From the NCBI GenBank assembly GCA_009779405.1, contig WREI01000018.1, positions 1 to 36,549 of the forward strand: a stretch of 36,549 bases of DNA, in the 5' to 3' direction. Below the pieces are notes generated by a model, which was not told the origin of the DNA, did no database searches, and worked only from the letters and a program-made list of their open reading frames with translations. Below, piece after piece: positions 51-19,102 of the stretch. The first letter of the stretch is position 1, and the number at the start of each line of letters is the position of its first letter. Source of the DNA: Clostridiales bacterium. GTDB taxonomy: Bacteria > Bacillota > Clostridia > Christensenellales > CAG-138. Position numbers and translations under genes: made by a program.

Positions 51-3000
51 ATGAGGAAGTTTTTGTGTTTTGTTCTAATCGTCTGTTTAGCGCTTGCAAC
101 ATTTACATTGCCGCAAGCAGTAAGCTATGCCTACCCGGCAGCATATCAGATTCCGGCACTAACAGGAAATCAGGCTATGGATATTGCTGCAATTGCAGAT
201 TCACAAGTGGGCTACACAGAAGAAGCAACAGACAGAACGATCTACAATGAATGGTTTTATGGTTCTAACACATCGGCGGCATGGTGTGCAATCTTTATCG
301 CGTGGTGTGCCAATAAGGCGGGGGTATCAACCAGTATTATCCCAAAGAATGCATCCGCTTCTGCAAGCGGCATTGTCTCCGGCATGACACCAATAACCAA
401 GAGTGAGTTAAGGCCCGGCGATATTGTGCGCTGGAATTCACCCGCACACGTGGCGATTGTTGTGGAGGCGGGGGCGGATCCGATTGTTGTGGATGGAAAC
501 TGCAGTAACAAAGTAGCCAAACACAAGCTTTCTTCACAAACAAACACGGGGCTAAGTTATTACCGACCGAGCTATGCGTCTATATTTACGCCGCGCCTGA
601 CGGATCCGGCAACGAATAATACCTACTATATTCATACAAGTTACGGCGGATTGAATGAGTGTATACGCATTTCTGGCGATTCGGTTTTACCAAATTGCGT
701 TGGGTATGCCTGGGGAAGAGCATACGAAATTACAGGTAAAAAACCAACATTAAGCAAAAACAATGCAAACACCTTTTGGGGAAGAACTAGTGATGGTTAC
801 AAGCGGGGTCAGGAGCCACGCTTGGGTGCAATTGTTTGCTGGAACAGTGGCTCTGCAGGGCACGTAGCTGTAGTAGAAAAAATTGAGGGTGATTATATCA
901 CCATTTCAGAATCTTCCTATGGAGGGGCAAGATTTCGTACTCGCTCTCTCAAGATTGGTTCATATGGAAGCAACTTTCAAGGATTCATTTATATATTAGG
1001 TGAAGGTGCAAGCAGTATCAACATTGGAACGCCAAAGAATTTTCGAGGGAACAATCTTGCATCAGATTTGTCCAAAGCCGTATTCTCGAGTGATGTCAAT
1101 ACTCCAATCGCACTTGCGTGGGACGCAGTCCCCAACGCTACAAGATATAAAATTGAGCTAATATCGTGGAACGGCACGAGCTGGGTGATAAGCAGTCTAA
1201 ACAATGCGAATACCAGGACGGTAACCGGAACAAGCACGACATATAGTAATCCTCCTGCCGGATATTATGGATTTAGGATAACCGCAGGAAGCGCAATCAG
1301 CTGGAGCGATGCATATGAACAGTGGGGTGCGGTTAATATTGTGAACCACCCCACATGCAGCTGGACATCCGGCTATGACACGAACCACCCGCACCGCGAA
1401 TATATGGCTTGCGCCTGCGGCGCGCGGCAATACCTGAGCACATACAGAACATTGCCCTCCTGCGACGAATGCACCCCCCCGGGTCAACCGCCAAGCGTAA
1501 GCTTTGCCCCGGGCGTGAACGTCGGCTTGGGCGCGGGTCTGGGTAACAACATCGGCAGAGGGGACAGCGTGAAGGTCAGTTACGGGGAAGCTTCGGGCTA
1601 TGCCGTTGGCTATCAGATCGACCTGGTTTGCACAAGCAACGCAAGCTTCAGCAAATCCAACGTGGGGACGAATTTCACCATAGAGAATCCGGGTACATAC
1701 AGGGTGGACGTGCGCGCGTATAACAATTCGGCGGCAAAATGGAGTTCCGCGGCGGCGTCCAACACCATCACCGTACACCCGGATGTAACGGCCACCTATT
1801 ATAACAATTGCACCGTATTATGCGATGCGCCTTGCAGCAATTATTGCACTGCAGAAATCGTAGATGCCAGAACCGTGAAATACGGCAGAAGCATTGCAAG
1901 GACGGTGCCCAACCGGCCCACCAAGTTGCACCACGACTTTGACGGCTGGGTGGATATGAACAGTATTACGGGCAACTGCTCCCAAACGGCAACCTTTACC
2001 ATTAAACAATACAGCGTGACCTTCACAGACCACTACGGCAACCGCAACGGCCCGATTCAATATGTTACGGCCTTGCAGGCGGCAACGCCGCCCGCGCCCA
2101 TGAATATTCCCGCCGGTTATGCCTTTACGGGTTGGGATAACCACGGTTATCTGCGGGTTGAATCGAATATCACAGTCAAGCAGGTGATCGCTTGGGAAAA
2201 TCCGAACTTCCTTTCGGCGGTGAGCGTGGAATCGGCCACAGCGGTGAAGCAAACAATAGGTGGAAAAGAGGAAATCATCGGATACGACGTGGTTGTTCGG
2301 ATTAAGGGGCATCCCGAACTGAACGCCAAGGGCAAAATCATCGTATCCTTAAAGACAGACGAAGCGCTCAGCGGATTGCCCGAGAAAATGGTTGCGGTAG
2401 AAATCAAATCCTTCCAAAAATTCGCCCAACCCAACCCGGCTGTCGGGGATACTTTGGAAACGGTCTTTGTGCCGTATACCGGCGGCGAGCACGGGTTCAT
2501 TGTGACAAGATGCGAGGTGGAGGTGGTAGGCATCCTTGCAGAGAACATTTCCGGCGTGTCGGACAATACCGGCGCTTCGATTGCCGCGAAAGCAACTTTT
2601 GCCATTGACTTGGGCGAAGAGTGGACGGGCTGGTCTACCAATCTGCCGCCGGCCGACGCGGACTTCACCGAGAGCCGACAGGAATATAGATACAAAGACA
2701 AATCTACCACAACAAGCTCGTCAAGCTCTATGAGTGGATGGACATTGTACAACACAACTTGGGTATGGGGTTCCTGGTCTGCGTGGAGCCAAACAGATCC
2801 CGGAGGAGCGACGTATCCAAATGAAACGCAAAACCGGCAAAAACAATCCAGATGGATTCCGGAAACATATAAGACTCAGTACCATTATTACATTTGGTGT
2901 ACAAACGCAAACGATGGCTGGACGACTAAGAGCTATGCGGAGAAGCAAACCGGGAAGACCGCGTATTTGAATGAAACCTGGTCAGATTATCAGTTTGCAT

Positions 3001-4895
3001 TCAACAAGACTGCGGGCGGTATGAATTGGTATAAGGGCTACGCAGGTCAATATTTTGGCAACACCAATTGGTTTGTTGCGGATGGAGCTGCCGGTGGTCT
3101 CGGAACGCCGACGCGCACAGTTGTAGCTACGCCGGGGTACACCGAATATCAGTACCGCGATAAGGTATACACATATTACTTTGAAAAATGGAGCGATTGG
3201 TCCGCTTGGCAGACAACCGCCCCAACGCCGAACGCCAACAGGGAGATTGAAACACGAACCGTTTATCGCTATAAATATAACAGGTCAACCCAAACCTTCT
3301 ATAATTATAAGCGCTTTATGGTGCAAAGTCTTGTAGACGGTAATTTCTACCCCGTGCACGACCCAATCTTGATTAGCCTGTTGGGCTTCCCGGGCAGGTG
3401 GGAGTATCACCGTACGAATGTGGAGTTGCCGATAGCGGGATCGACGGGATCCATCACCATCTACGGCACGGGGGACGATACATGGGTGAAGGCGGACGCG
3501 CACGCACTCGGTGACCGGCCCGACCTCCATGTGTATCTGAGCGAGCAATCCCGTGAAGACCTGTTCGGCACGGAGCGGACGGTTGAAGGCACGATGCCTG
3601 CGGAGTTTGGCGGCCTGATTGCGACGATTATGGTGTATAAGGAGACGAATACCGACCCGACGGCAAACCAGCTGCAGTATATCAGCCAAACGACCTTGGG
3701 GCCGAACGGCGAATACAGCTTTACCTTCCGTCCTCGGCAGGAGCCCATCAGCAACGACCCCAACCCGTTTAAGATTACGGGTGACTTCCTCGTCGCAATC
3801 GCCGTCGAGGGGCAATTGGCGCCGAGCACCGTGCAAACGATCTACGCGCCGCGCCCTGTCTATGAAGTTCTGTTTGTCGATGATGACGGCAGTCTGCTGG
3901 CGAAGCAAATGGTATTGCGGGGTGACAGCGCAAGCCTGCCCGATGCGCCCGTTAAAGAGGGGCATGTGTTTATAGGCTGGGACAGGGCGGCGACCAATGT
4001 GCAGTTGGATATGGTACTCAAAGCACGGTATATCAAAAACCAGTACAGCGTTGTATTCATCGATTGGGATGCTTACTTCCTTGAAATCAAGACCTTTGAA
4101 CACGGCGACGCACTGACCTTGCCCGATGTTACGCGTGACAACGGCAGAATTTTCTCCGGCTGGGCGGACGAAAACGGGGAAGCCGTGGAATTTGTGACGC
4201 GGAATATGGTGGTGACGGCACAGTATGATTTGGAAGTATATACTGTAAACTTCATGAATTGGGACGGCAGCTTGATCAGCGAGCAGTCTGTGGAGCACGG
4301 AAGCGACGCGGAACTGCCGAATGTCGAGATAGCGCCGATGGGCGAAATGTTGTTTGCCTATTGGAGCAGTTATGTGGATTATGTCACCGAGGATATGGAT
4401 GTCTATCCGATCATGATGTATGAATTCAGTGTCGAGTCAGTTGTGGCATCGGTCGCCGGCGGCGTATACGCAACGCCGCGAACGGTTGCGCTGACCTGTT
4501 CCACGCCCGATGCGCAGATATATTACACCGTGGACGGCACTGTCCCGTTCAATGACGAGTACGGAACAGAGAGCACGATGCTCTACACCGGACCTATCGA
4601 AATAACACAGGATACCGAATTGATGTTTATCGCAGTAGCGGACGGAATGAATCCAAGCTATGTAGGGTATGAGGAGTATATCATTGATGCATCCATCGTG
4701 AAACGCGGCGACGCCAACTGCGATGGCGAAGTGAGTGCCGCCGATGCCGCATTGGTTCTGCGCTATTTGGCGGGGCTTACGGATATCAGCGAACAGGGCC
4801 TGCTGAATGCGCATGTCACGAATGGTGATTCCATCGGCGCGGCGGACGCCGCAATGATACTGCGGTATTTGGCGGGACTGACTATGCTGGAATAG
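51..4895 (+). CDS. Secreted giant protein: two CHAP-like domains, InlB-type repeats, dockerin
   Basis: This 1614-residue protein has a signal peptide (about residues 1–28, ending near AYPA) and should act outside the cell. Two CHAP/NlpC-like cysteine peptidase or amidase domains follow: the first has Cys79 in AAWCA and His133 in PAHVAIV; the second, about 190–317, has Cys216 in PNCVGYAWG, His271 in GHVAVVE and a possible third residue, Glu287. Such domains usually cut peptidoglycan. The middle has W-S-x-W/YRY repeats near 857, 905 and 1047. InlB/Listeria–Bacteroides repeats (V-x-F-x-D/W...GW) lie near 650 and 1270–1455. A chitobiase-C-like beta domain spans about 1465–1550. Residues 1551–1614 are a type I dockerin; the first calcium loop (GDANCDGEVSAADA) is intact and the second (VTNGDSIGAADA) is degenerate. 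ATG at 51 is supported by GCGGAGGG at 34–41. The CHAP-coding part is visibly more AT-rich than the rest. Substrate and cohesin partner are unknown. Confidence 0.9.
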   Translation: MRKFLCFVLIVCLALATFTLPQAVSYAYPAAYQIPALTGNQAMDIAAIADSQVGYTEEATDRTIYNEWFYGSNTSAAWCAIFIAWCANKAGVSTSIIPKNASASASGIVSGMTPITKSELRPGDIVRWNSPAHVAIVVEAGADPIVVDGNCSNKVAKHKLSSQTNTGLSYYRPSYASIFTPRLTDPATNNTYYIHTSYGGLNECIRISGDSVLPNCVGYAWGRAYEITGKKPTLSKNNANTFWGRTSDGYKRGQEPRLGAIVCWNSGSAGHVAVVEKIEGDYITISESSYGGARFRTRSLKIGSYGSNFQGFIYILGEGASSINIGTPKNFRGNNLASDLSKAVFSSDVNTPIALAWDAVPNATRYKIELISWNGTSWVISSLNNANTRTVTGTSTTYSNPPAGYYGFRITAGSAISWSDAYEQWGAVNIVNHPTCSWTSGYDTNHPHREYMACACGARQYLSTYRTLPSCDECTPPGQPPSVSFAPGVNVGLGAGLGNNIGRGDSVKVSYGEASGYAVGYQIDLVCTSNASFSKSNVGTNFTIENPGTYRVDVRAYNNSAAKWSSAAASNTITVHPDVTATYYNNCTVLCDAPCSNYCTAEIVDARTVKYGRSIARTVPNRPTKLHHDFDGWVDMNSITGNCSQTATFTIKQYSVTFTDHYGNRNGPIQYVTALQAATPPAPMNIPAGYAFTGWDNHGYLRVESNITVKQVIAWENPNFLSAVSVESATAVKQTIGGKEEIIGYDVVVRIKGHPELNAKGKIIVSLKTDEALSGLPEKMVAVEIKSFQKFAQPNPAVGDTLETVFVPYTGGEHGFIVTRCEVEVVGILAENISGVSDNTGASIAAKATFAIDLGEEWTGWSTNLPPADADFTESRQEYRYKDKSTTTSSSSSMSGWTLYNTTWVWGSWSAWSQTDPGGATYPNETQNRQKQSRWIPETYKTQYHYYIWCTNANDGWTTKSYAEKQTGKTAYLNETWSDYQFAFNKTAGGMNWYKGYAGQYFGNTNWFVADGAAGGLGTPTRTVVATPGYTEYQYRDKVYTYYFEKWSDWSAWQTTAPTPNANREIETRTVYRYKYNRSTQTFYNYKRFMVQSLVDGNFYPVHDPILISLLGFPGRWEYHRTNVELPIAGSTGSITIYGTGDDTWVKADAHALGDRPDLHVYLSEQSREDLFGTERTVEGTMPAEFGGLIATIMVYKETNTDPTANQLQYISQTTLGPNGEYSFTFRPRQEPISNDPNPFKITGDFLVAIAVEGQLAPSTVQTIYAPRPVYEVLFVDDDGSLLAKQMVLRGDSASLPDAPVKEGHVFIGWDRAATNVQLDMVLKARYIKNQYSVVFIDWDAYFLEIKTFEHGDALTLPDVTRDNGRIFSGWADENGEAVEFVTRNMVVTAQYDLEVYTVNFMNWDGSLISEQSVEHGSDAELPNVEIAPMGEMLFAYWSSYVDYVTEDMDVYPIMMYEFSVESVVASVAGGVYATPRTVALTCSTPDAQIYYTVDGTVPFNDEYGTESTMLYTGPIEITQDTELMFIAVADGMNPSYVGYEEYIIDASIVKRGDANCDGEVSAADAALVLRYLAGLTDISEQGLLNAHVTNGDSIGAADAAMILRYLAGLTMLE

Positions 4896-4979: not shown

Positions 4980-5008
4980 GCATACCCGCGCACGACCGTG
5001 CATACATT
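4980..5008 (+). promoter_or_regulatory. Sigma-E-like promoter of spoIVA
   Basis: GCATACC at 4980–4986, a 14-base spacer, and CATACATT at 5001–5008 fit the mother-cell sigma-E consensus (KMATATT, N14–15, CATACA-T). The -10 element is a full match and the -35 matches 5 of 7 positions. In Bacillus subtilis spoIVA is sigma-E dependent, so motif and gene agree. Transcription should start about 34 bases before the RBS GGAGG (5032–5036). Confidence 0.65.
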
Positions 5009-5042
5009 TCCATGAACAAAAATGTTTCGCGGAGGAAAAACG

Positions 5043-6521
5043 ATGGACAGAGCAGGCCTGTATAAAGATATTGCGCAGCGCACGGACGGGGACATCTATT
5101 TGGGGGTCGTGGGGCCGGTGCGCACGGGGAAATCCACCTTTATCAAGCGCTTTTCGGAGCTGCTGATGCTCCCGAATATCCAGCATGAGCATACCCGCAC
5201 CCGCGTGGTGGATGAGCTGCCCCAGAGCGGCAGCGGGCGCAGCGTGATGACGACCCAACCCAAGTTTGTGCCTGCTGAGGCGGCGGATGTGCAGTTGGAT
5301 GAGCACACCCGCGCGCGGATGCGGCTGGTAGATTGCGTGGGTTATATGATACCCGGCGCGCTGGCGAGCGCGGAAGAGGATGTGCCGCGCATGGTGCGCA
5401 CGCCCTGGTTTGCCGAGGATATCCCCTTCGAGCAGGCGGCGGAGATCGGCACTGACAAGGTGATACGCGACCACTCGACGATCGGCATCGTGATGACGAC
5501 GGACGGCAGCATCACCGAGCTGCCGAGAGAGCGCTATATCGAGGCGGAGGAAAAGGCGATTGCCGCCGCAAGAACTGCGGGCAAACCCTTTATCGTCGTC
5601 GTCAACAGCCGCAACCCCGACGCCGACGCCGCGCGGGACTTGGCGGAGGAACTGGCGGCACGCCACAGCGTCACCGCCGTATCTATGGACGTCCTGCGCA
5701 TGAGCGATCGGGATTTGCTTCAATTGCTCTCGGAGATATTGTATGCCTTCCCGCTGAAGCTGATCGAGCTGCAACTGCCGCCCTTTATGCGGGCGCTCGG
5801 CGCGGATCACGCGTTGATGCAGCGCCTGCTGCTGCCCGTGCTCACGACGGCGCCGAATCTGCATACCGTGAAGGATTATGGCGCCGTGCTTACCGAGCTA
5901 TCCAATCTGGAACAGTTTGAAAAGCCGACGGTCGAGGAAATTTCACTCGGGACCGGCACCGTGCAGATTCGCATACGCCCGGAGGATGGCCTGTTTTATC
6001 AGGTGCTCTCCGAGGCCTGCGGCGCGGATATCGGGGATGAATACCAGCTGATGGCGACGGTTTCGGAGTTTGTCGCGGCCAAAAAGGAATACGACCAGAT
6101 TGCGGGTGCCTTGCAGCAAGCCAAACAGACGGGTTATGGCATCGTGCCGCCCATACTCGATGAGATGGAGCTCTTGGACCCCGAAATTATACGCGCGGGC
6201 AACAAGTTCGGCGTCAAGCTTCACGCCAAGGCCAGCGGGCTGCACCTGATCCGCGTGGATATAGACAGCGAAATCAATCCGCTGGTGGGCAGCGAACAGC
6301 AGAGCGAAGCCCTCGTCAAGCACCTCACCGACTCCTTCGAGCAAGACCCCTCCTCCATCTGGCAGACGGATATCTTCGGCAAGTCGCTCTATGATCTCGT
6401 CTGCGACGGCATGCAGGGCAAGGTCGTCGGCATGAACGAGCAGGTGCAGCAGCGCATGCAGAGCACCTTGCAGCGTATTGTCAACAATGGGTGCAATGGG
6501 TTAATTTGTATTATGTTGTGA
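5043..6521 (+). CDS. spoIVA: Stage IV sporulation protein A (spore coat morphogenetic ATPase)
   Basis: SpoIVA hydrolyses ATP to polymerise on the outer forespore membrane and forms the base on which the spore coat assembles. The product is 492 residues from ATG 5043, the same length as B. subtilis SpoIVA. I chose this start over the in-frame ATG at 5022 because GCGGAGGAAAAA sits just before it. The N-terminal GTPase-like ATPase domain has a Walker A motif GPVRTGKST near residues 24–32 and a switch region rich in conserved threonines. The C-terminus ends NNGCNGLICIML, the characteristic SpoIVA tail that binds SpoVM and anchors the protein. The last 215 coding bases (6307–6521) are duplicated at 8131–8345 with mostly silent differences, so this 3' end may have been replaced during insertion of the AT-rich segment that follows. 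Confidence 0.97.
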   Translation: MDRAGLYKDIAQRTDGDIYLGVVGPVRTGKSTFIKRFSELLMLPNIQHEHTRTRVVDELPQSGSGRSVMTTQPKFVPAEAADVQLDEHTRARMRLVDCVGYMIPGALASAEEDVPRMVRTPWFAEDIPFEQAAEIGTDKVIRDHSTIGIVMTTDGSITELPRERYIEAEEKAIAAARTAGKPFIVVVNSRNPDADAARDLAEELAARHSVTAVSMDVLRMSDRDLLQLLSEILYAFPLKLIELQLPPFMRALGADHALMQRLLLPVLTTAPNLHTVKDYGAVLTELSNLEQFEKPTVEEISLGTGTVQIRIRPEDGLFYQVLSEACGADIGDEYQLMATVSEFVAAKKEYDQIAGALQQAKQTGYGIVPPILDEMELLDPEIIRAGNKFGVKLHAKASGLHLIRVDIDSEINPLVGSEQQSEALVKHLTDSFEQDPSSIWQTDIFGKSLYDLVCDGMQGKVVGMNEQVQQRMQSTLQRIVNNGCNGLICIML

Positions 6522-6523
6522 TG
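6307..6523 (+). repeat. Upstream copy of a 217-base direct repeat (spoIVA 3' end)
   Basis: This segment matches 8131–8347 with a constant offset of 1824 bases, no gaps and 8 substitutions. It encodes the functional C-terminus and stop of spoIVA. With the other copy it brackets the AT-rich cassette 6524–8130. Confidence 0.93.
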
Positions 6524-6554
6524 GGCTTTGCGGGGTATATGGAGGATGTTGCAT

Positions 6555-6572
6555 GGCGCGATTTATCGCGCC
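6555..6572. repeat. Short intergenic palindrome, GGCGCGAT-TT-ATCGCGCC
   Basis: This is a perfect 8-bp inverted repeat with a 2-base centre, followed by CCTAC. A near-identical copy is at 9541–9563 and a decayed one at 12384–12406. It lies 4 bases beyond the stop codon of the minus-strand HTH gene. It has no T-tract, so terminator function is doubtful. Confidence 0.75.
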
Positions 6573-6576
6573 CCTA

Positions 6577-6774
6577 CTATTCTTCTATAATAAACAAATC
6601 ATTTGGAGTGCATTCTAATAACTTGCAAAGCTTTTCCATTGTGTCAAATCGAATTCCGGTTGTTTGATTGTCGATCATATTATTAATAACCGTATAATTA
6701 CTTCCAAGTTCTTGGACTAACCAATACTTGCTCTTCCCCTTTTTCTTTAAGAGATTTTCTATGTTCAAATACAT
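6577..6774 (-). CDS. Small Cro/C1-type (HTH_26-like) transcriptional regulator
   Basis: This 65-residue protein is almost entirely one Cro/C1-type helix-turn-helix domain: IENLLKKKGKSKYWLVQELG forms the first helices, and the FDTMEKLCKLLECTPNDLF pattern at the end is typical of HTH_26 regulators. It probably binds DNA as a dimer. I chose ATG 6774 (MYLNIENLL) because family members start about four residues before the first helix. An in-frame ATG at 6792 and a longer reading frame to 6882 exist, but the extension would run through the promoter of the divergent lipoprotein gene and looks non-coding. A GAGGGA lies 19 bases upstream, poorly placed, so the start is uncertain. Its divergent position suggests it may control the neighbouring lipoprotein genes. 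Confidence 0.8.
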   Translation of the reverse strand: MYLNIENLLKKKGKSKYWLVQELGSNYTVINNMIDNQTTGIRFDTMEKLCKLLECTPNDLFIIEE

Positions 6775-6823
6775 AATACATTCATTGTACATATCCCTCA
6801 AATCAATTATAAGTATAATAGGC

Positions 6824-6852
6824 TTGACAGTATATTCTATTTGAGGTATTAT
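6824..6852 (+). promoter_or_regulatory. Sigma-A promoter of the cassette lipoprotein genes
   Basis: TTGACA (6824–6829), a 17-base spacer and TATTAT (6847–6852) form a near-consensus housekeeping promoter. It reads toward the lipoprotein gene starting at 6895, between that gene and the divergent HTH gene. Confidence 0.8.
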
Positions 6853-6894
6853 AGGTTCGTCGATTTGACAAATAAAATACAAATGGAGGCCTTT

Positions 6895-7287
6895 ATGGGG
6901 AAGAACTTTATTATGCGAAAAACACTGATTTTTGTGCTAGTATTAATGCTAATACTATCCTCTGTTGCTTGCAGTTGCGGAGGTAGCAACAGCATTGTAG
7001 GAACTTGGGAAACTCCAAACGGCAAGAGCACAATTGAATTCTTCAAAGATGGAACATGTAATACGGATAACCTGTATGGTGATGCTTTCTCTGGAGCTTC
7101 GAGTCTTAATACTGACAATTATGCAGTCGGCGAAAATGGAAAGATTGTATTTAGTCCCGGAAGTTATTACGAGAAAACTTTTTATTACAAGATTATCGGT
7201 AATAGGTTGTATCTTAGCGGTACTAAGCTTACGGATGAAGAAATAGCCCGGATTGACGGACGCGCTGAATATTTAGTGCGCAAATAG
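6895..7287 (+). CDS. Small lipoprotein with lipocalin-like (DUF5640-type) domain
   Basis: The predicted product is a 130-residue surface lipoprotein. The N-terminus MGKNFIMRKTLIFVLVLMLILSS... leads to a lipobox SSVAC with lipidated Cys26. The mature part opens with SIVGTWETPNGKSTIEFFKDGT and continues as short beta strands ending in YKIIGNRLYL, the pattern of small bacterial lipocalin-like or DUF5640 domains; function is unknown. ATG 6895 is preceded by TGGAGG at 6884–6889. A longer frame from a TTG at 6841 would start inside the promoter -10 region and is rejected. The gene is AT-rich and belongs to the inserted segment; it is followed 49 bases later by another lipoprotein, probably co-transcribed. 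Confidence 0.8.
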   Translation: MGKNFIMRKTLIFVLVLMLILSSVACSCGGSNSIVGTWETPNGKSTIEFFKDGTCNTDNLYGDAFSGASSLNTDNYAVGENGKIVFSPGSYYEKTFYYKIIGNRLYLSGTKLTDEEIARIDGRAEYLVRK

Positions 7288-7336
7288 GCTATTAACAGGT
7301 TCCGTTTTGACTTGAAAAACGTGGAGGTTTTGGTTT

Positions 7337-8074
7337 ATGAAGAAAACCCATTTTACGCTTGCAGTTGGCTTGATTTTATTAGCAATGCTGGTTTTAGCAA
7401 TGAGTTGCGGCAGCAAGGGAAGCAATATGGGCGCTTCCTTATCAAATGACTTCCAGTATAACGACATTACGGAGAGCAACTCTCGGTCTGACTTCAAATA
7501 TATCTACGATGATACGGTTTGCGGTATCGTGATTATAGAATATGTAGGATCAGGCGGAAAGGTGCAGCTACCCGCGATGATTGAGGGAAAGCCAGTAGTG
7601 AAGATTGGTAATAATGCCTTTTGGGGAAACACCAGTATCAAAGAAGTATATATACCGGATAGTGTAGTGGAGTTTGGTAATGCCGTATTTGCCTTCTGTA
7701 CGTCGTTGAGAAACGTTACAATGCCTAATAACGTGGCTGTGATAAATGACTGCATGTTTCAGGGTTGCAAAAGGTTGATGGACATTACAATACCTGATGG
7801 CGTGGTGACCATTGGAGAGCGTGCGTTTCTCGACTGCAAAGAATTAACGAGCATCACGATACCTGATAGCGTAACAAGCATTGGCGAATCAGCATTCGCC
7901 CGCACAGGGCTGGCAAATGTTGATATACCTATCAGTGTTACAAGTATTGGAAATGGAGCATTCAACGCAATTTCCGCCGATTTTTTTGCTATATACAACG
8001 GAGAAGTATTTGTCCCCGACCAGCAAGGTAATTATTTTATGCCAGATGCATTTTATGATGCCATTAACGGATAG
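7337..8074 (+). CDS. BspA-type leucine-rich-repeat lipoprotein
   Basis: This 245-residue surface protein has a signal sequence ending in the lipobox LAMSC (Cys24). From about residue 70 it carries five or six LRR_5 (BspA/TpLRR) repeats of about 23 residues, with the pattern IPDSVTSIGESAFAxCxxLxxI. Such repeats form an extended curved surface and usually bind host, matrix or bacterial proteins; they are not enzymes. GTGGAGG at 7321–7327 lies 9 bases before the ATG. The C-terminal 30 residues (AIYNGEVFVPDQQGNYFMPDAFYDAING) fall outside the repeat and may cap it. The gene ends 56 bases before the duplicated spoIVA fragment, so it is the last gene of the cassette. I see no terminator directly after it. 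Confidence 0.88.
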   Translation: MKKTHFTLAVGLILLAMLVLAMSCGSKGSNMGASLSNDFQYNDITESNSRSDFKYIYDDTVCGIVIIEYVGSGGKVQLPAMIEGKPVVKIGNNAFWGNTSIKEVYIPDSVVEFGNAVFAFCTSLRNVTMPNNVAVINDCMFQGCKRLMDITIPDGVVTIGERAFLDCKELTSITIPDSVTSIGESAFARTGLANVDIPISVTSIGNGAFNAISADFFAIYNGEVFVPDQQGNYFMPDAFYDAING

Positions 8075-8130
8075 ATCCTTGTATGATGCTGCTCTTTCTG
8101 CTTAATCACCACGTTGAAAAGCAAGCAGCT

Positions 8131-8347
8131 AAGCCCTCGTCAAGCACCTCACCGACTCCTTCGAGCAGGACCCCTCCTCCATCTGACAGACGGATATCTT
8201 CGGCAAGTCGCTCTATGATCTCGTCTGCGACGGCATGCAGGGCAAGGTCGTCGGCATGAACGAACAGGTGCAGCAGCGCATGCAGAGCACCTTGCAGCGC
8301 ATTGTCAATAATGGGTGCAATGGGTTGATTTGTATTATGCTTTGATG
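8131..8347 (+). pseudogene. Orphan, broken copy of the spoIVA 3' end
   Basis: This 217-base stretch is collinear with 6307–6523 and differs at eight positions. Six codons differ silently (CAA/CAG, GAG/GAA, CGT/CGC, AAC/AAT, TTA/TTG, TTG/CTT, seven base changes). One difference turns the Trp codon TGG into the stop TGA. It has no start codon or upstream coding sequence, so it cannot make SpoIVA. It is followed within 20 bases by a strong terminator, which the intact spoIVA lacks; this suggests it is the original chromosomal tail displaced by the insertion. An independent duplication remains possible. Confidence 0.93.
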
Positions 8348-8363
8348 TATGCAAACTTGCACA

Positions 8364-8387
8364 GGGACGTGAGGCGTCCCTTTTTTT
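8364..8387 (+). terminator. Intrinsic terminator, probably the ancestral spoIVA terminator
   Basis: The stem GGGACG / CGTCCC (8364–8369 and 8375–8380) with loop TGAGG... is followed by seven T residues. It lies just past the spoIVA fragment and now ends transcription of the cassette lipoprotein genes. Confidence 0.88.
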
Positions 8388-8471
8388 GATCTATACTGCT
8401 TTTATGCAGCATTGAGAGTATAATATTTATGGCAATTGACAAAATGTTCGACAGGTTTGGGAGGGTCATTT

Positions 8472-9479: not shown

Positions 9480-9540
9480 TGCGGCGTATGGCAGGCGAGG
9501 GATACACTACGCCCTGCACCGGGTTTCATATGCTCCATCA

Positions 9541-9563
9541 GGGCGCGATGTATCGCGCCCCTA
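9541..9563. repeat. Short intergenic palindrome supplying a stop codon
   Basis: GGGCGCGAT-GT-ATCGCGCCC is a perfect 9-bp inverted repeat, followed by CTAC as at 6555–6577. Read on the minus strand the motif begins GTAG, and this TAG (9561–9563) is the stop codon of the double-GNAT gene. There is no T-tract on either side. Confidence 0.8.
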
Positions 9564-11072: not shown

Positions 11073-11660
11073 ATGAAAATCAGTAAAACGGCTTTGATCG
11101 TCCTGGCTTGCGTCTCGGCTCTGCTGCTGGCCCTCTGTATCCTGCTGCTCACGGGCGTGATCCCCTTGCAGCGCGGCATGCCGGGGAACGCGGACGGACC
11201 GGGCGACGTGCCGGTTTCGATCGACGACCCGGACAGGCCCGACCGCAGCGGGGAGGCGAACGCCGCCTATGCGCAGAAGAAGGATTATAAGCGCCAGTTG
11301 GACGATTATTTCACCGCGTTGAAGACCGGAGACGCGCCGCTCCTGCTGAGCCTGTATCATCAGGATTTTTGGGAAGACAGCGGCCTTACGCTTTCCGACG
11401 CGCTCTATACCATGGAGGAAAGCGTGGAAGTCTATGCCCTGCCCGCGGACAGCAGCTATGAGATTATACAGGAGCGCGCGCCGGACAAGGAGACAAGGGC
11501 TGCCGTGCTCGAGCATTATCCCAATCTGACCATCGCCAATATCATTGAGCTGGATGTGTCCTATACCTTAGACGGCGAAACGTACAGAATCATATGCACC
11601 TTTTTCCAGGTGGACAACGCATGGTATCTCTATGAGGATATCGGGCAGCTGAACTATTGA
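11073..11660 (+). CDS. Membrane-anchored protein with NTF2-like extracellular domain
   Basis: The 195-residue product has one N-terminal membrane segment (about 7–29), a Gly/Pro/Asp-rich linker (about 35–65), then a domain of about 125 residues starting KDYKRQLDDYFTALKTGDAPLLLSLYHQDFW and ending TFFQVDNAWYLYEDIG. The helix, cone and strand order with a terminal WYLYED strand resembles NTF2-like/DUF4878 domains, which bind ligands or peptidoglycan-linked partners; the assignment is tentative. The Cys in LLALC does not fit a lipobox, so it is probably a plain membrane anchor. ATG 11073 has CGGAGG just upstream; the longer frame from 10989 overlaps the promoter. Its stop codon overlaps the start of tcdA by one base, so the two are translationally coupled. 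Confidence 0.75.
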   Translation: MKISKTALIVLACVSALLLALCILLLTGVIPLQRGMPGNADGPGDVPVSIDDPDRPDRSGEANAAYAQKKDYKRQLDDYFTALKTGDAPLLLSLYHQDFWEDSGLTLSDALYTMEESVEVYALPADSSYEIIQERAPDKETRAAVLEHYPNLTIANIIELDVSYTLDGETYRIICTFFQVDNAWYLYEDIGQLNY

Positions 11661-12364
11661 TGGAACGGTTTTCACGGACGGAGTTGCTGATCGGCGCGGA
11701 AGGAATTTCGCGCCTTTTGCGCGCGCGGGTCGCGGTGTTCGGGCTGGGCGGCGTGGGCGGACACGCGGCGGAGGCCCTGGCGCGGGCGGGTGTGGGCAGC
11801 TTAGACCTCTTTGACAACGATGTGATCTGCGAGAGCAACCTGAACCGCCAGCTATTCGCCACAATGGACAGCTTGGGGCAGCTGAAGACCGACGCCGCGC
11901 GGGCGCGGATCTTGTCCATACGCGGGGACGCGGTTGTCAACTGCCATCCCATATTCTATACTGGCAAGACGGCGGACGGAGTGGATTTGTCCGTATACGA
12001 CTATGTGATCGACGCGGTGGACACGGTAGACGCCAAGCTGACCCTGGCCGAGCGCTGTTTTGCGGGGAAGATACCCCTGATCTCCGTCATGGGTTGTGGG
12101 AATAAGCTGGATCCGACAAAGTTTACGGTCTGCGATATTTTCGAGACCTCCGTCTGCCCGCTGGCGCGCGTGATGCGGCACGAACTGAAAAAGCGCAATG
12201 TGCCGCGCCTGCAGGTGGTATATTCGACGGAAGCGGCGCGCAGGCCGATTGGTGAGGACGGCGCGCGGCGGCAGACTCCGGGCAGCATTGCCTTTGTGCC
12301 TGCTGTGGCGGGATTGATCGCGGTGGGGGTGGTGGTGCGGGGTTTGTGCGGTATCCCCCATTGA
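11660..12364 (+). CDS. tcdA: tRNA threonylcarbamoyladenosine dehydratase (TcdA/CsdL)
   Basis: TcdA uses ATP to dehydrate t6A37 of ANN-decoding tRNAs to the cyclic form ct6A, which improves decoding. The 234-residue protein has an E1-like ThiF fold: nucleotide loop VFGLGGVGG (25–34), FDNDVICESNLNRQ (51–64) with the Asp and Arg that contact ATP, and DAVDTVDAK for the metal or adenylate site. SVMGCGNKLDPTKF (about 142–155) and SVCPLARVMRHELKK (Cys166) are signatures of the TcdA branch rather than ThiF or MoeB. It lacks the paired CxxC zinc motifs of MoeB. The ATG at 11660 overlaps the upstream TGA; a TTG at 11657 is the alternative start. Pairing with a membrane protein is not a known functional link. 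Confidence 0.92.
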   Translation: MERFSRTELLIGAEGISRLLRARVAVFGLGGVGGHAAEALARAGVGSLDLFDNDVICESNLNRQLFATMDSLGQLKTDAARARILSIRGDAVVNCHPIFYTGKTADGVDLSVYDYVIDAVDTVDAKLTLAERCFAGKIPLISVMGCGNKLDPTKFTVCDIFETSVCPLARVMRHELKKRNVPRLQVVYSTEAARRPIGEDGARRQTPGSIAFVPAVAGLIAVGVVVRGLCGIPH

Positions 12365-12383
12365 GATTATTTATGATGATGCA

Positions 12384-12406
12384 GGGCGCAATGTATGGCA
12401 CGCCTA
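12384..12406. repeat. Decayed copy of the GGCGCGAT palindrome
   Basis: GGGCGCAATGTATGGCACGCC followed by TAC keeps the centre and flank of the palindromes at 6555 and 9541 but has lost perfect pairing. It lies 20 bases after the tcdA stop codon. Confidence 0.5.
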
Positions 12407-12407
12407 C

Positions 12408-12436
12408 TTGAAATCCGCATCCCCGCGTGATATACT
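12408..12436 (+). promoter_or_regulatory. Sigma-A promoter of the hydrolase-like/NagB-like pair
   Basis: TTGAAA (12408–12413), a 17-base spacer and TATACT (12431–12436) lie 28 bases before the start codon of the hydrolase-like gene. The -35 begins right after the decayed palindrome. Confidence 0.7.
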
Positions 12437-12463
12437 CGCCACAAAGAAAATGGGGAGGGTTGC

Positions 12464-13408
12464 ATGCAGGTATTTGTGCGAGAGCGCCGCTTTGTGTCCG
12501 CGACGGGCGTTTGCGATGTGCGCTGCCGCGTTTGGGCGCCCGAGGAGCCCTGCGGGGCGCTGCAGCTGACGCACGGGCTCTGTGAGCAGCTCGAGCGCTA
12601 TGAGGCCCTGGCCCAATATTTGGCCGCGAACGGCTGGCTATGCTATGGCATGGACAATCCGGGACACGGCAAGAGCCAGCGCGCCGGGCAGCCTGCGAGT
12701 TATTTCGGGGACGCCGGGGGCTGGGACGCCCTGATCGCCGATATGGCGACACTGCGGAACTTGATTCTGTCCGACTATCCCGCCCTGCCCGCCGTTTTGC
12801 TCGGACAGGGCTTCGGTTCCCTGCTGGCGCGCAGTTATGCGGCGCGGCGCGGCGGCGATTTCCATGGCTATGCCTTCTTTGGCACGGCGGGCGGCGGATT
12901 TTTGCGCTATCGCGTGGCCCGGATGCAGCTTGCCAAGCAAATCAAGGCCGGGCGCGGCATGGGGACGGCGGATGAGCTCTTTCGCAAATATACGGAACGC
13001 TTTGAAAAATCCGTACCCGGCGCGACAACCCCGTTCTGCTGGCTTTCGCGGGACGAGGGCGCGGTGCTGGAATATTTGGGCGATCCCCTCTGCGGCAAAG
13101 TGCCGACCGTCTATGCACTGCGCGACGTGCTGGACGGACTCTTGGAGGTGAGCGACGCGCGCTGGGCGCAGCGGCAGAGCCGCAGGCCCGTCTATCTCGC
13201 ATCCGGGGCCTGCGACCCCATAGGCCGCGCGGGGCGGGGCGTGCTGCAGGTGGAGCGCTGGCTCTTAAAGGCCAAGCGCAGGGTCTCCCTGAAACTCTAT
13301 CCGCTGGCGCGCCACGATATATTGCACGAGACCATACGCGATACGGTGTTTGCGGACCTGCTCCTGTTTTTGGAGTCCGTGGCCGTGCTGGGTGAATACG
13401 GGAATTAG
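12464..13408 (+). CDS. Alpha/beta hydrolase homologue lacking the serine nucleophile
   Basis: The 314-residue protein has the fold of the monoacylglycerol lipase/lysophospholipase family (Hydrolase_4). It keeps the oxyanion loop LTHGLCEQLERY (His37-Gly38), the strand-turn MDNPGHGKS (63–71), the acid loop SGACDPIG (Asp251) and the histidine RHDILHE (His284). The nucleophile elbow, normally G-H-S-M-G-S, is GQGFGS (114–119) with Gly116 in place of serine. The usual hydrolysis mechanism is therefore not possible, and the protein may be a binding or regulatory pseudoenzyme. A sequencing error would need to change GGC to AGC. GGGGAGGG precedes ATG 12464. It is 11 bases upstream of a NagB-like gene that has also lost catalytic residues. 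Confidence 0.85.
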   Translation: MQVFVRERRFVSATGVCDVRCRVWAPEEPCGALQLTHGLCEQLERYEALAQYLAANGWLCYGMDNPGHGKSQRAGQPASYFGDAGGWDALIADMATLRNLILSDYPALPAVLLGQGFGSLLARSYAARRGGDFHGYAFFGTAGGGFLRYRVARMQLAKQIKAGRGMGTADELFRKYTERFEKSVPGATTPFCWLSRDEGAVLEYLGDPLCGKVPTVYALRDVLDGLLEVSDARWAQRQSRRPVYLASGACDPIGRAGRGVLQVERWLLKAKRRVSLKLYPLARHDILHETIRDTVFADLLLFLESVAVLGEYGN

Positions 13409-13419
13409 AAGGAGAGTCT

Positions 13420-14088
13420 ATGAGCGTTTTGATCTACCCCGATAAGAAGATGGCGGCGAAGGCGGCGGCGGCCCTGCTGGCCGCGCAGATTATCGCCAAG
13501 CCCTCTTCCGTCATAGGACTGGACTATGACCCCACCCTGCTGCCCTGTTATCATGAGCTGGCGGACACCGCGGTCTCGGGCCTATTGGATTGGAGCCGCG
13601 TCACGGTGTTCCAGCTCTGCGAACGGGCCAAGTCGGACGAGGCCATCTCATTGCGCGACCTGTTATGGCGGGCTCTGCTGCACCGCACCAACCTGCCGCC
13701 CAAGGCTTTTTTCGCGCCGCCCGAGGAGTCAGGCGACTGGGTGGGCGAATGCCTGCATCTGGAGGAAGCCATATTGCACCGCGGCGGCCTGGACCTTGCG
13801 CTGCTGGGACTGAAAGACGACGCCACGGTCCTCTTCAACCGCCCTGCGTCCGCGCTGGCCCACGGGGCGCATACCGTGCACTATCGGGAGGAGCGGGTGC
13901 TCACCGCAGGGATTCCCACCGTGATGCAGGCCCGGAAGCTGATCGTGCTGGCGACGGGCGAGGAGAGACGGGAAGCGGTGCTCTCCATGCTGCGGGAAGC
14001 GATCACCCCACAGAGGCCCGCGTCGTTCCTGCAACTGCACGCAAATGTCACGTTTATTCTGGACGCCGCGGCGGCGGAGAAGCTTTAG
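13420..14088 (+). CDS. NagB-like (glucosamine-6-phosphate isomerase fold) protein, degenerate active site
   Basis: The 222-residue protein resembles glucosamine-6-phosphate deaminase/6-phosphogluconolactonase in overall pattern: IGLDYDPTLLPCYHEL (32–47) for the substrate loop, RVTVFQLCERAKSDE (60–74), DLALLGLKDDATVLFNRP (125–142) and GIPTVMQARKLIVLATGEER. In active NagB these places hold GxATGSTP, LDEY, GxDGHIxFNEP and the lid. Here the Asp of LDEY is Cys67, the catalytic His of DGH is Thr136 and the Glu of FNEP is Arg141, while Asp134 and FN remain. The deaminase reaction is unlikely; sugar-phosphate binding or regulation is possible. AGAAGGAGAG precedes ATG 13420. It shares a transcript with the hydrolase-like gene. 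Recognition is by motif spacing only, so the family call is moderate. Confidence 0.7.
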   Translation: MSVLIYPDKKMAAKAAAALLAAQIIAKPSSVIGLDYDPTLLPCYHELADTAVSGLLDWSRVTVFQLCERAKSDEAISLRDLLWRALLHRTNLPPKAFFAPPEESGDWVGECLHLEEAILHRGGLDLALLGLKDDATVLFNRPASALAHGAHTVHYREERVLTAGIPTVMQARKLIVLATGEERREAVLSMLREAITPQRPASFLQLHANVTFILDAAAAEKL

Positions 14089-14090
14089 GG

Positions 14091-14200
14091 GAGTGAATAG
14101 TTAAGAGTTGTGGTAGGAATCGCAGGCGATTCAAATTAAATCAAAAATACCGCAGGTATTTTCACCGCAACTCTTCACTCATAATTCTTCACTCTTCATT
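14091..14200. repeat. Modular inverted-repeat element B
   Basis: The arms contain GAGTGAATAGTTAAGAGTTG on the left and the complementary CAACTCTTCACTC...TTCACTCTTCATT on the right. Core hairpins are GAATCGC-AG-GCGATTC (14117–14132) and AAAATACC-GCA-GGTATTTT (14144–14162). It belongs to the same family as 10862–10974 and 32403–32523. It lies between the NagB-like gene and yebC and starts 2 bases after the stop codon. Confidence 0.85.
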
Positions 14201-14224
14201 CAAATCAAACATGGAGGGATATAC

Positions 14225-14959
14225 ATGTCAGGGCATTCTAAGTGGGCCAATATCAAGAATAAGAAGGAAAAGACGGATTCACAGCGGGGGAAGATCTTCA
14301 CCAAGATCGGGCGCGAGATCGCCATTGCGGTGAAGGAGGGCGGCGGCGGCGACCCCACCACGAACTCCAAACTGCGGGACGTGATTGCCAAGGCCAAGGC
14401 GAACAATATGCCGAACGACAATATCAGCCGTTCAATCAAGAAGGCCACGGGCGAGGGCAGCAGCGTCAACTATGAGGAGATCCTCTACGAAGGCTACGGG
14501 CCGCACAATGTCGCCGTCATCATCGAGGTGCTGACGGACAACCGCAACCGCTGTGCCGCCGAGATACGGCACATCTTCAGCAAGGCGGGCGGCAGCATGG
14601 GCGCGAGCGGCTCCGTCGCGTGGATGTTCGACAAGAAGGGCGTAATCGTGATCGAGCGGACGGCCCTGCACGACGAGGACGAGGTGATGTTGGAAGCGCT
14701 CGACGCGGGAGCGGAGGACTTCGTTGCCCAAGACGACGCGTTCGAGGTATGCACCGCGCCCGAGGACTTTTCCGCAGTGCGCGAGACCTTGGAGAAGGCG
14801 GGCTACAGCTTCCTCTCCGCTGAAATAGACCGCATCCCGCAGAACCCCTTGGAGATACGCGACGCGGGTGCGGCGGATTCCATACAGGCCTTCCTGGACA
14901 GGCTGGAGGACAACGACGACGTGCAGAATGTGTTTCATAATGCGGAGATGCCGGAGTAA
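14225..14959 (+). CDS. yebC: YebC/PmpR family protein (TACO1 family)
   Basis: This family was first described as transcriptional regulators and is now also linked to translation through difficult proline-rich stretches. The 244-residue product is full length and begins with the signature MSGHSKWANIKNKKEKTDSQRGKIFTKI... . Conserved blocks are LRDVIAKAKANNMPNDNISRSIKKA, YEGYGPHNVAVIIEVLTDNRNR and KAGGSMGASGSVAWMFDKKG. The protein acts in the cytoplasm. GGAGGGATATAC precedes ATG 14225. It follows repeat element B and precedes the Asp23–fakA–recG operon; no intrinsic terminator is visible after it, but a promoter-like sequence at about 15013 suggests separate transcription of the next operon. Confidence 0.96.
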   Translation: MSGHSKWANIKNKKEKTDSQRGKIFTKIGREIAIAVKEGGGGDPTTNSKLRDVIAKAKANNMPNDNISRSIKKATGEGSSVNYEEILYEGYGPHNVAVIIEVLTDNRNRCAAEIRHIFSKAGGSMGASGSVAWMFDKKGVIVIERTALHDEDEVMLEALDAGAEDFVAQDDAFEVCTAPEDFSAVRETLEKAGYSFLSAEIDRIPQNPLEIRDAGAADSIQAFLDRLEDNDDVQNVFHNAEMPE

Positions 14960-15012
14960 TTCCTGTCCCTAAATCACGGCAAGATACGATTAGAACGTAT
15001 TTTTGACGAAAT

Positions 15013-15041
15013 AATAAGATATTATATATACAATAGGAGGA
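15013..15041 (+). promoter_or_regulatory. Probable promoter of the Asp23–fakA–recG operon
   Basis: TTGACG near 15002–15007 is followed 16–17 bases later by TATATA/ATATAC in an AT-rich stretch just before AGGAGG. This is a plausible sigma-A promoter for the operon; the exact -10 is ambiguous because of the repeated TA steps. Confidence 0.5.
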
Positions 15042-15047
15042 TGCGTT

Positions 15048-15410
15048 ATGGTTTTTGAAGTGAACACCGAACTCGGAAAGGTGATCGTTCCCGAAGATCT
15101 GATCGCCACGATCGCCGGGTATGCGGCGCAGGAGAACTACGGGCTGGCCGGTATGCGCGCCAAGACGGCGGGCGACTCCATCACGGAGCTCTTCGGCGGC
15201 AAGGACAAACTGAACAAGGGTGTGAAGGTGACCGCGCTCTCGCCGACGGAACTGTCGCTGGATCTGTATGTCACCCTGCAATACGGGGTGTCCCTGCCCG
15301 CCGTGGCCCAGAACCTGATCAGCAATGTGAAGTACCGCGTGGAAGATATCATCGGTATCACGGTGCAAAGCGTCAACATCTTTGTGGAAAGTATCCGCGT
15401 CGAAGAATAG
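15048..15410 (+). CDS. Asp23/Gls24 family envelope-stress protein (YloU-like)
   Basis: The 120-residue protein is a complete Asp23/Gls24-family member: VNTELGKVIVPEDLIATIAGYAAQENYGLAGM at the N-terminus and YRVEDIIGITVQSVNIFVESIRVEE at the C-terminus are family hallmarks. In Bacillota the YloU branch is encoded just before yloV/fakA, exactly as here. Asp23 proteins are cytoplasmic, peripheral to the membrane, and linked with cell-envelope homeostasis; the molecular role of YloU is not settled. AGGAGGATGCGTT lies before ATG 15048. The gap to fakA is 56 bases with no terminator, so they are probably co-transcribed. Confidence 0.93.
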   Translation: MVFEVNTELGKVIVPEDLIATIAGYAAQENYGLAGMRAKTAGDSITELFGGKDKLNKGVKVTALSPTELSLDLYVTLQYGVSLPAVAQNLISNVKYRVEDIIGITVQSVNIFVESIRVEE

Positions 15411-17116: not shown

Positions 17117-19102
17117 ATGGAGCTCACCGACCTTAAAGGTATAGGCGAAAAGACTGCGAAGATCCTGACGGACGCGGGCATGGCCCGGCCCGAGGATCTT
17201 CTTTCCTGTCTGCCGCTTTCCTATATCGATACGCGCCACCCCAAGCCCCTGCGGGACGTGGACGAGGGGGAGTTTGCCTGCGTCGCCGCGCTGGTGGAGC
17301 GGGCGCCGACCGTTTACTATTTCAAGGGCAGCGCGCGCGTGACTGTCGCCTGCGTGAGCGGGGCGGACAGGCTTTCCCTTTGCTTTATGAACCAGAGTTA
17401 CCGCGCCGGGCAGTTTACGATTGGACAGAAGTTGCTGGTCTACGGCTGTTTTGGCGGACATCCGAAGCGGAGCGTCTGGAATCCCGTGCTGTGCAAGCCC
17501 GAGGATGGGATATTACCGCGCTATAAGCCGCTCAAGGGCGTGGCTCAGACGACCCTGCGCCGCGCGATTGCGCAGGCACTGGAACTTTGCCCCGTGGCGG
17601 AGCTGCCGGATGAGAGTTTATTTGCGGATTTGGGACTGATGCGGCGCGGGGAGGCCTATCGTGTTGCGCATTTTCCAACAGACACCGGGGAACTGGCGCG
17701 GGCGCAGACCCGCTTGGCCTTTGATAAAGCGTTTGCCTATCTGCTTTCCGTGGCGCGGCGGCGCGCCGAGCGCCGGGCGCAGGGCGGCAGGGCCTTTGCT
17801 ATGGAGGACCTGCCCGAGAACTTTATCGCTACCCTCCCCTTCTCCCCCACGCGGGCGCAGGAGCGGGTGCTGCTCGAGATCAGCGCGGATATGTCGCTGA
17901 GCGCGCCCATGAATCGATTGGTGCAGGGGGATGTGGGCTGCGGGAAGACCCTGTTGGCCGAATATGCGCTCTTTGCCGCCGCCGAAAACGGCAGACAGGG
18001 CGCACTGCTTGCGCCTACCGAGATACTGGCGCGCCAGCACTATGCGCACTTGCAGCAGCGTTTCGGCGAACATTGCGTGCTGCTATTGGGTGGGCAAACG
18101 GCAGCTACAACCCGCGCGGCCAAGGCGGCCTTGCAGAGCGGCACGGCGCAAATCGTCGTCGGGACGCATGCGCTGCTGACCGAGAATGTCGCGTTTACCA
18201 ACCTCGCGCTATTGGTCGTGGATGAACAGCATCGCTTTGGCGTGGCACAGCGGGCCGGCTTGGCCGCCAAGGGCAGCGCGCCCGATATGCTGGTGATGAG
18301 CGCGACGCCCATCCCGCGCACGCTGGCGATGACCCTGTTTGGGGATTTGGATATTTCCGCAGTGGACGAACTGCCCGCCGGACGCTTGCCCGTCAAGACG
18401 CGCTATATCGCGCCCGCCAAGCGCGCGGAGATGTACCGCTATATCGCGGAACAGGCGGCAAATGGCGTGCAGAGCTATGTCGTCTGCCCCTGCATTGAAG
18501 CCGCCGAGGGTTTGGAGGGGCTGTCCGCGAAGGAGATTTATAAGGAATTGCAAAGCCTTTGCGCGGGCGCGCGGATCGCGCTGCTGCACGGAAAGCTTTC
18601 AAGCAAGGAAAAGACGCGCGTGATGCAGGCCTTTGCCGATGGGGCAGCGGATATTTTGGTGACGACGACCGTAATCGAGGTGGGCGTGCATATGCCGAAC
18701 GCCAACTGCATGGTGATCGAGGGCGCGGAGCGCTTTGGGCTCTCGACCCTGCATCAACTGCGCGGGCGCATCGGCAGGGGGACCGTGGAAGCGCATTGCT
18801 TTTTGCTCTCGCGCTCCCGCAGTTTGTCGACGCGGGAACGATTGGAGGTGCTGCTCTCCGGCGCGGACGGCTTTGCCGTGGCGGAGGAGGATCTGCGCCT
18901 GCGCGGCGCGGGCGATTATTTCGGGCAGCGCCAGTCGGGCGAGGACGCCACCGCGCGAAGCCTGTACAACATCAACGCCGCCGTGATCGCAATGGCGCAG
19001 GACGCCGTGTTTCGGGTGGAGCGGTTGGCGGCGGGAGAACGGGAAAAGTGGTTTGACACGCTGTGCGGGGATGCGCGGGCGGACGCGATTGTGATGAATT
19101 AG
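17117..19102 (+). CDS. recG: ATP-dependent DNA helicase RecG
   Basis: RecG remodels stalled replication forks and branched recombination intermediates. The 661-residue protein begins with a helix–hairpin–helix-like LTDLKGIGEKTAKILTDAG and an OB-fold wedge domain (about 55–170). Helicase motifs are in order: LVQGDVGCGKT (Walker A, near 272), LLAPTEILARQH (Ia), VVDEQHRFGV (motif II, DEQH, near 368), MSATPIPRTLAM (III, near 393), TTTVIEVGVHMPNAN (V, near 515) and LHQLRGRIGRG (VI, near 545). It is slightly shorter than typical RecG (about 680–690) with all motifs intact. The ATG follows the fakA TAA directly (TAAATG), so translation is probably coupled. The Asp23–fakA–recG order is a common Bacillota arrangement. 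Confidence 0.97.
   Translation: MELTDLKGIGEKTAKILTDAGMARPEDLLSCLPLSYIDTRHPKPLRDVDEGEFACVAALVERAPTVYYFKGSARVTVACVSGADRLSLCFMNQSYRAGQFTIGQKLLVYGCFGGHPKRSVWNPVLCKPEDGILPRYKPLKGVAQTTLRRAIAQALELCPVAELPDESLFADLGLMRRGEAYRVAHFPTDTGELARAQTRLAFDKAFAYLLSVARRRAERRAQGGRAFAMEDLPENFIATLPFSPTRAQERVLLEISADMSLSAPMNRLVQGDVGCGKTLLAEYALFAAAENGRQGALLAPTEILARQHYAHLQQRFGEHCVLLLGGQTAATTRAAKAALQSGTAQIVVGTHALLTENVAFTNLALLVVDEQHRFGVAQRAGLAAKGSAPDMLVMSATPIPRTLAMTLFGDLDISAVDELPAGRLPVKTRYIAPAKRAEMYRYIAEQAANGVQSYVVCPCIEAAEGLEGLSAKEIYKELQSLCAGARIALLHGKLSSKEKTRVMQAFADGAADILVTTTVIEVGVHMPNANCMVIEGAERFGLSTLHQLRGRIGRGTVEAHCFLLSRSRSLSTRERLEVLLSGADGFAVAEEDLRLRGAGDYFGQRQSGEDATARSLYNINAAVIAMAQDAVFRVERLAAGEREKWFDTLCGDARADAIVMN

Follow-up and report, generated by a model that had tools for sequence, protein, structure and literature searches.

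The spoIVA locus examined here lies on contig WREI01000018.1 of Clostridiales bacterium (GCA_009779405.1), whose 36,549 nucleotides form the window analysed; coordinates refer to its forward strand unless another stretch is named. spoIVA is intact, encodes 492 amino acids and occupies 5043–6521 on the forward strand, with 5043 as its likely start (TIGR02836, E = 1.9e-192; Pfam SpoIVA_ATPase, middle and C domains). The 3' end of the gene is present twice. The upstream copy (6303–6523, forward strand) is the live end of spoIVA, encoding residues 421–492 and spanning nearly the whole SpoIVA_C domain as defined by Pfam, so that the gene is left whole beside the inserted DNA, as the initial annotation had it. 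The downstream copy (8127–8347, forward strand) is dead: it lacks a start and has an in-frame TGA at codon 440, and when read from 8127 it meets a further stop, TAA at codon 422. The repeat was originally described as 217 ungapped bases (6307–6523 against 8131–8347) with 8 differences, which we reproduced exactly; it can be extended to 221 bases, starting at 6303 and 8127, at 95.9% identity. Similarity ends at 8127–8131, a junction without extended homology. The match between the copies (blastn, E about 1e-99) is far beyond chance, and these two places are the only matches to the spoIVA tail in the whole genome. Immediately 3' of the dead tail is an intrinsic terminator (8360–8390, forward strand; fold -15 kcal/mol, z -2.3), plausibly the former terminator of spoIVA. 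Upstream of spoIVA, 51–4895 encodes a 1614-aa secreted protein with dockerin-like repeats at its C-terminus.

Between the tails lies a 1.6-kb interval (6524–8126) with a GC content of 40%, where windows of the genome average 56% and just 1.5% of its 1.25-kb windows have a GC fraction of 0.42 or less; the interval is foreign-looking. It bears out the earlier description of an AT-rich segment with a helix-turn-helix (HTH) regulator and two surface proteins. The regulator, of the HTH_26 (Cro/C1) type, is convergent with spoIVA (6577–6882, reverse strand; Pfam PF13443, E = 1.3e-12). It is followed on the forward strand by a small exported or lipoprotein-like gene (6895–7287), whose similarity to DUF5640 is weak and under the Pfam cutoff (E = 2.9e-4), and by a gene for an exported BspA-type leucine-rich repeat (LRR) protein (7337–8074; Pfam LRR_5, E = 1e-34). 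Judging from their signal sequences, it is plausible that both exported proteins are lipoproteins. No integrase domain was found by Pfam among the open reading frames (ORFs) of the cassette, as previously reported, and Rfam and tRNA scans gave no matches. A REP-like palindromic repeat, GGGCGCGATATATCGCGCCCCTAC (6530–6575, forward strand), to which the initial annotation did not refer, lies at the cassette's left edge; it recurs in the window at 9520–9563, and the genome has 18 or more copies of it, together with three Y1_Tnp (RAYT-type) genes.

Seven of the 8 differences between the spoIVA tails are synonymous, and the remaining one is a nonsense change. Neutral change would be synonymous in about one quarter of cases, and the observed proportion has a probability of about 2e-4 (1e-4 to 5e-4 over the transition biases tried). 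Such a bias suggests that the tails are two alleles, once functional, and not a local duplicate that has drifted since; on their codon pattern, it looks as though each evolved as coding sequence before the two came together. This agrees with the original proposal that the cassette brought its own functional C-terminus in so far as two alleles appear to be present, although the available relatives are too distant to polarise which copy was the incoming one.

The same pattern bears on the possibility that the tail was copied in place, either by insertion with long target duplication or by local duplication followed by loss. Long direct repeats around cargo are a published signature of the former (PMC1643837) and are present here, and the REP-like repeat and Y1_Tnp genes are in keeping with local rearrangement of this kind. 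However, a dead tail copied in place would drift neutrally, while 7 of 8 changes are synonymous, and this divergence points to two alleles where a repeat of single origin is expected. We regard copying in place as improbable.

A scan for gene tails repeated downstream covered 1.6 Mb of the same genome, in stretches, and 1.66 Mb of other genomes. Besides spoIVA, two AT-rich cassettes of like build were found in the former. On contig 17 (stretch L203), the last 138 bp of an AraC-type gene (2954–3880) recur at 5111–5248 with 88% identity; the interval is 1.2 kb long with 41% GC and contains one convergent zinc-ribbon gene. Six of the nine codons that differ between these tails are synonymous and three alter the residue, two of those from V to I. 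Just before the second AraC tail, at 5003–5104, is a short open stretch, EAIYFMTDERTVACVDMHLLNSLEQFAATLKEKG, that resembles the tail of another gene; no source gene for it was found in the sequence compared. On contig 3 (stretch L341), the last ~33 bases of an ABC-2 permease gene (Pfam) recur 950 bp further on, enclosing 0.95 kb of 42% GC with an LRR gene that uses the stop codon supplied by the repeated permease tail. This inserted gene (17483–18430, reverse complement) is frameshifted, with a lipoprotein-like start in another frame. The permease tails are nearly identical, as duplication in place would have it, and are too short for allelic divergence to show; for the spoIVA and AraC tails that explanation is strained.

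The three cassettes have no terminal motif in common and their tails no common core. The tail repeats differ in length (221, 138 and ~33 bp) and all begin within genes, and no integrase or other mobility gene was found in any of the three. No tail-bracketed cassette was found in the 1.66 Mb of other genomes, where matches were paralogs within ORFs, one REP-like case and one contig-end case. As scan matches were sorted by inspection, recurrence within a single genome is a strong lead and not a measured rate. Insertion with long target duplication has been described for restriction-modification genes of Helicobacter pylori (Nobusato 2000, via PMC1643837 and PMC3154945). The likeness lies in a small cargo placed between long direct repeats, in a cassette without a transposase; the cargo here is instead a regulator and surface proteins and, unlike in a fresh long target duplication, two of the three repeat pairs have diverged, mostly at synonymous positions.

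Recurrence also bears on whether the structure is an artefact, produced when a metagenome-type assembly fused two co-occurring strains, one of which had the cassette and the other not. There are 116 contigs in the assembly, and a synonymous divergence of 4% resembles that of two strain alleles. Nevertheless, a like build on three contigs is poorly explained by such a mixture, the right-hand junctions offer no overlap by which a cassette could be joined to the middle of a gene, and the dead copy has a nonsense change. We consider an assembly artefact quite improbable.

Comparison with relatives did not uphold the ancestral order that the initial annotation predicted, of spoIVA followed by the terminator and a DUF5050 gene. 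In the one congener compared, as in most of the family genomes examined, gpr comes directly after spoIVA. In the present genome gpr is on contig 34 (stretch L168), preceded by a dockerin-type gene and REP-like repeats, which indicates that the spoIVA locus underwent other rearrangements besides. Split-contig cases aside, among the 78 family genomes that have a match to spoIVA a second copy of its tail occurs in one, namely the present one, and in none of the other 77, which include no conspecific genome and differ in gene order.

The cassette HTH protein has a homolog in the congener with 89% identity, whereas the SpoIVA proteins share 73%; the gene is again convergent with its neighbour, there lying behind cinA. 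The tail of cinA in the congener is accompanied by a repeat of ~30 bp, which was matched in 0 of 2000 shuffles within the tail but is not significant over the whole gene, and is only a hint of the same build as at spoIVA. More distant HTH_26 relatives (~50% identity) are found across the order, often with a divergent lipoprotein-like gene next to them and convergent with the neighbour on their left. The spoIVA cassette thus places a common accessory module in a new position. HTH homologs at the level of the order were located in 38 regions; of the 37 that could be tested, none had a coding-tail repeat. In one of these regions (G347, stretch L297) intergenic REP-like repeats flank both sides, and in another (G113, stretch L301) a terminator is present twice. 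The present genome has a second, truncated HTH relative on contig 84 (stretch L261, 5378–5518), which abuts the 3' end of rarA and adjoins a PASTA-DUF5050 protein; no tail repeat was found there.

A duplicated gene tail is also left by site-specific integration, and the cassette could be a decayed integrase element, such as a CIME-like island or prophage, that used the 3' end of spoIVA as its attachment site, restored the tail on entry and has since lost its integrase. Prophage e14 in the icd gene of Escherichia coli (15.2 kb, with intE/xisE; PMC6379469), used as a positive control, gives the same signature: a coding tail of 165 bp with 12 differences, 10 of them synonymous. As at spoIVA, a diverged but synonymous tail is restored upstream and a dead tail lies downstream. 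A gene-tail pair of the attachment type with spoIVA restored is just what such an element leaves; furthermore, the repressor-like HTH_26 gene adjoining the tail fits a phage remnant, and conserved genes such as spoIVA and cinA fit as attachment sites. Unlike e14, the cassettes here are 1–1.6 kb long and mobility genes are missing from all three, their tails share neither core nor ends, and neither an AraC-type regulator nor an ABC-2 permease makes a likely integrase target. Searches of viral contigs with the spoIVA tail, the HTH and LRR proteins and two exact DNA patterns gave no confirmed relative or match, and no tail-only spoIVA was found in viral contigs, phages or plasmids. The spoIVA-like matches in phage and plasmid records were rejected as tail-only attachment sites, for they extend well past the tail and are full or contig-truncated genes. 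Because the e14 control shows the same signature, an element that has lost its integrase is a live rival, albeit one that we judge unlikely.

We give about an even chance to the reading in which a close relative supplied the cassette and its capture, anchored by homology to the gene tail, needed no integrase. It is supported by the repeat, the synonymous pattern, the dead copy, the absence of an integrase and the two further like loci, and also by the HTH protein being closer to the congener than SpoIVA is, yet lying behind a different gene there. The insert is flanked on one side by homology to its target (the 217/221-bp repeat), while the other junction has no extended homology and the cassette ends have no common motif. 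Of the routes raised in the initial annotation, homologous single-crossover capture best fits the tail repeat, the two-allele pattern and the lack of an integrase; the first interpretation thus stands as regards the intact gene, the two alleles, the missing integrase and capture, and is not borne out as regards the ancestral gene order.

A donor fragment comprising a relative's spoIVA tail and the DNA 3' of it would pair by homology with the resident tail. It might then be circularised by end-joining and inserted by a single RecA-type crossover, or it might enter by homology-facilitated illegitimate recombination (HFIR), with homology at one end and illegitimate joining at codon 421. The product of either route would be an intact hybrid spoIVA, the cassette, and an orphan tail joined to the old downstream DNA. 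A bias towards the 3' ends of genes would follow from selection, since only such insertions keep the gene whole. We infer the donor's identity, the route of entry and the dependence on RecA from the footprint; no donor came to light. Both HFIR and circularisation with a single crossover are documented reactions (PMC3240628), and have been proposed for the T6SS immunity arrays of Vibrio cholerae (PMC5361080); HFIR is infrequent in experiments (PMC5361080, PMC3240628). The present case resembles them in having one end anchored by homology, no integrase, foreign DNA beside conserved sequence and a displaced remnant downstream, and differs in being read from footprints at three loci in an uncultured Clostridia-type genome. 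Crude motif searches of part of that genome gave no candidate for DprA or ComGA and one uncertain ComEC-like ORF. A bolder scheme, which we think has little likelihood, would make these cassettes mobile without an integrase: a copy of the host gene tail would serve as the address, and, through ordinary recombination, a circle of tail and cargo would enter and leave the gene that it matches, so that HTH-lipoprotein and LRR modules would pass between related gut bacteria.

The spoIVA cassette represents a variation on insertion types already known, made more interesting by recurring in one genome. Small genomic islands without mobility genes have mostly gone unexplained so far, and a duplicated gene tail alone does not prove an integrase. 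If the capture reading is true, two gene-tail alleles around foreign DNA, recurring in one genome, would be a simple mark of integrase-free capture, and the footprint could be used to gauge how often uncultured bacteria gain surface and regulatory genes.

Other scan matches in the stretches compared were set aside after inspection. Those in L211, L357, L364 and L366 are apparent paralogs or tandem families, that in L353 is likely a wrong-frame ORF, and those in L335, L351 and L371 are weaker repeats. The match in L200 is probably a diversity-generating retroelement. From the repeat pattern and translated ORFs, this element appears to occupy 11087–15349 of that stretch (contig 14) and to include a reverse transcriptase-like gene, with its template repeat at 12404–12523 and its variable repeat at 13129–13248, at the 3' end of the target gene.
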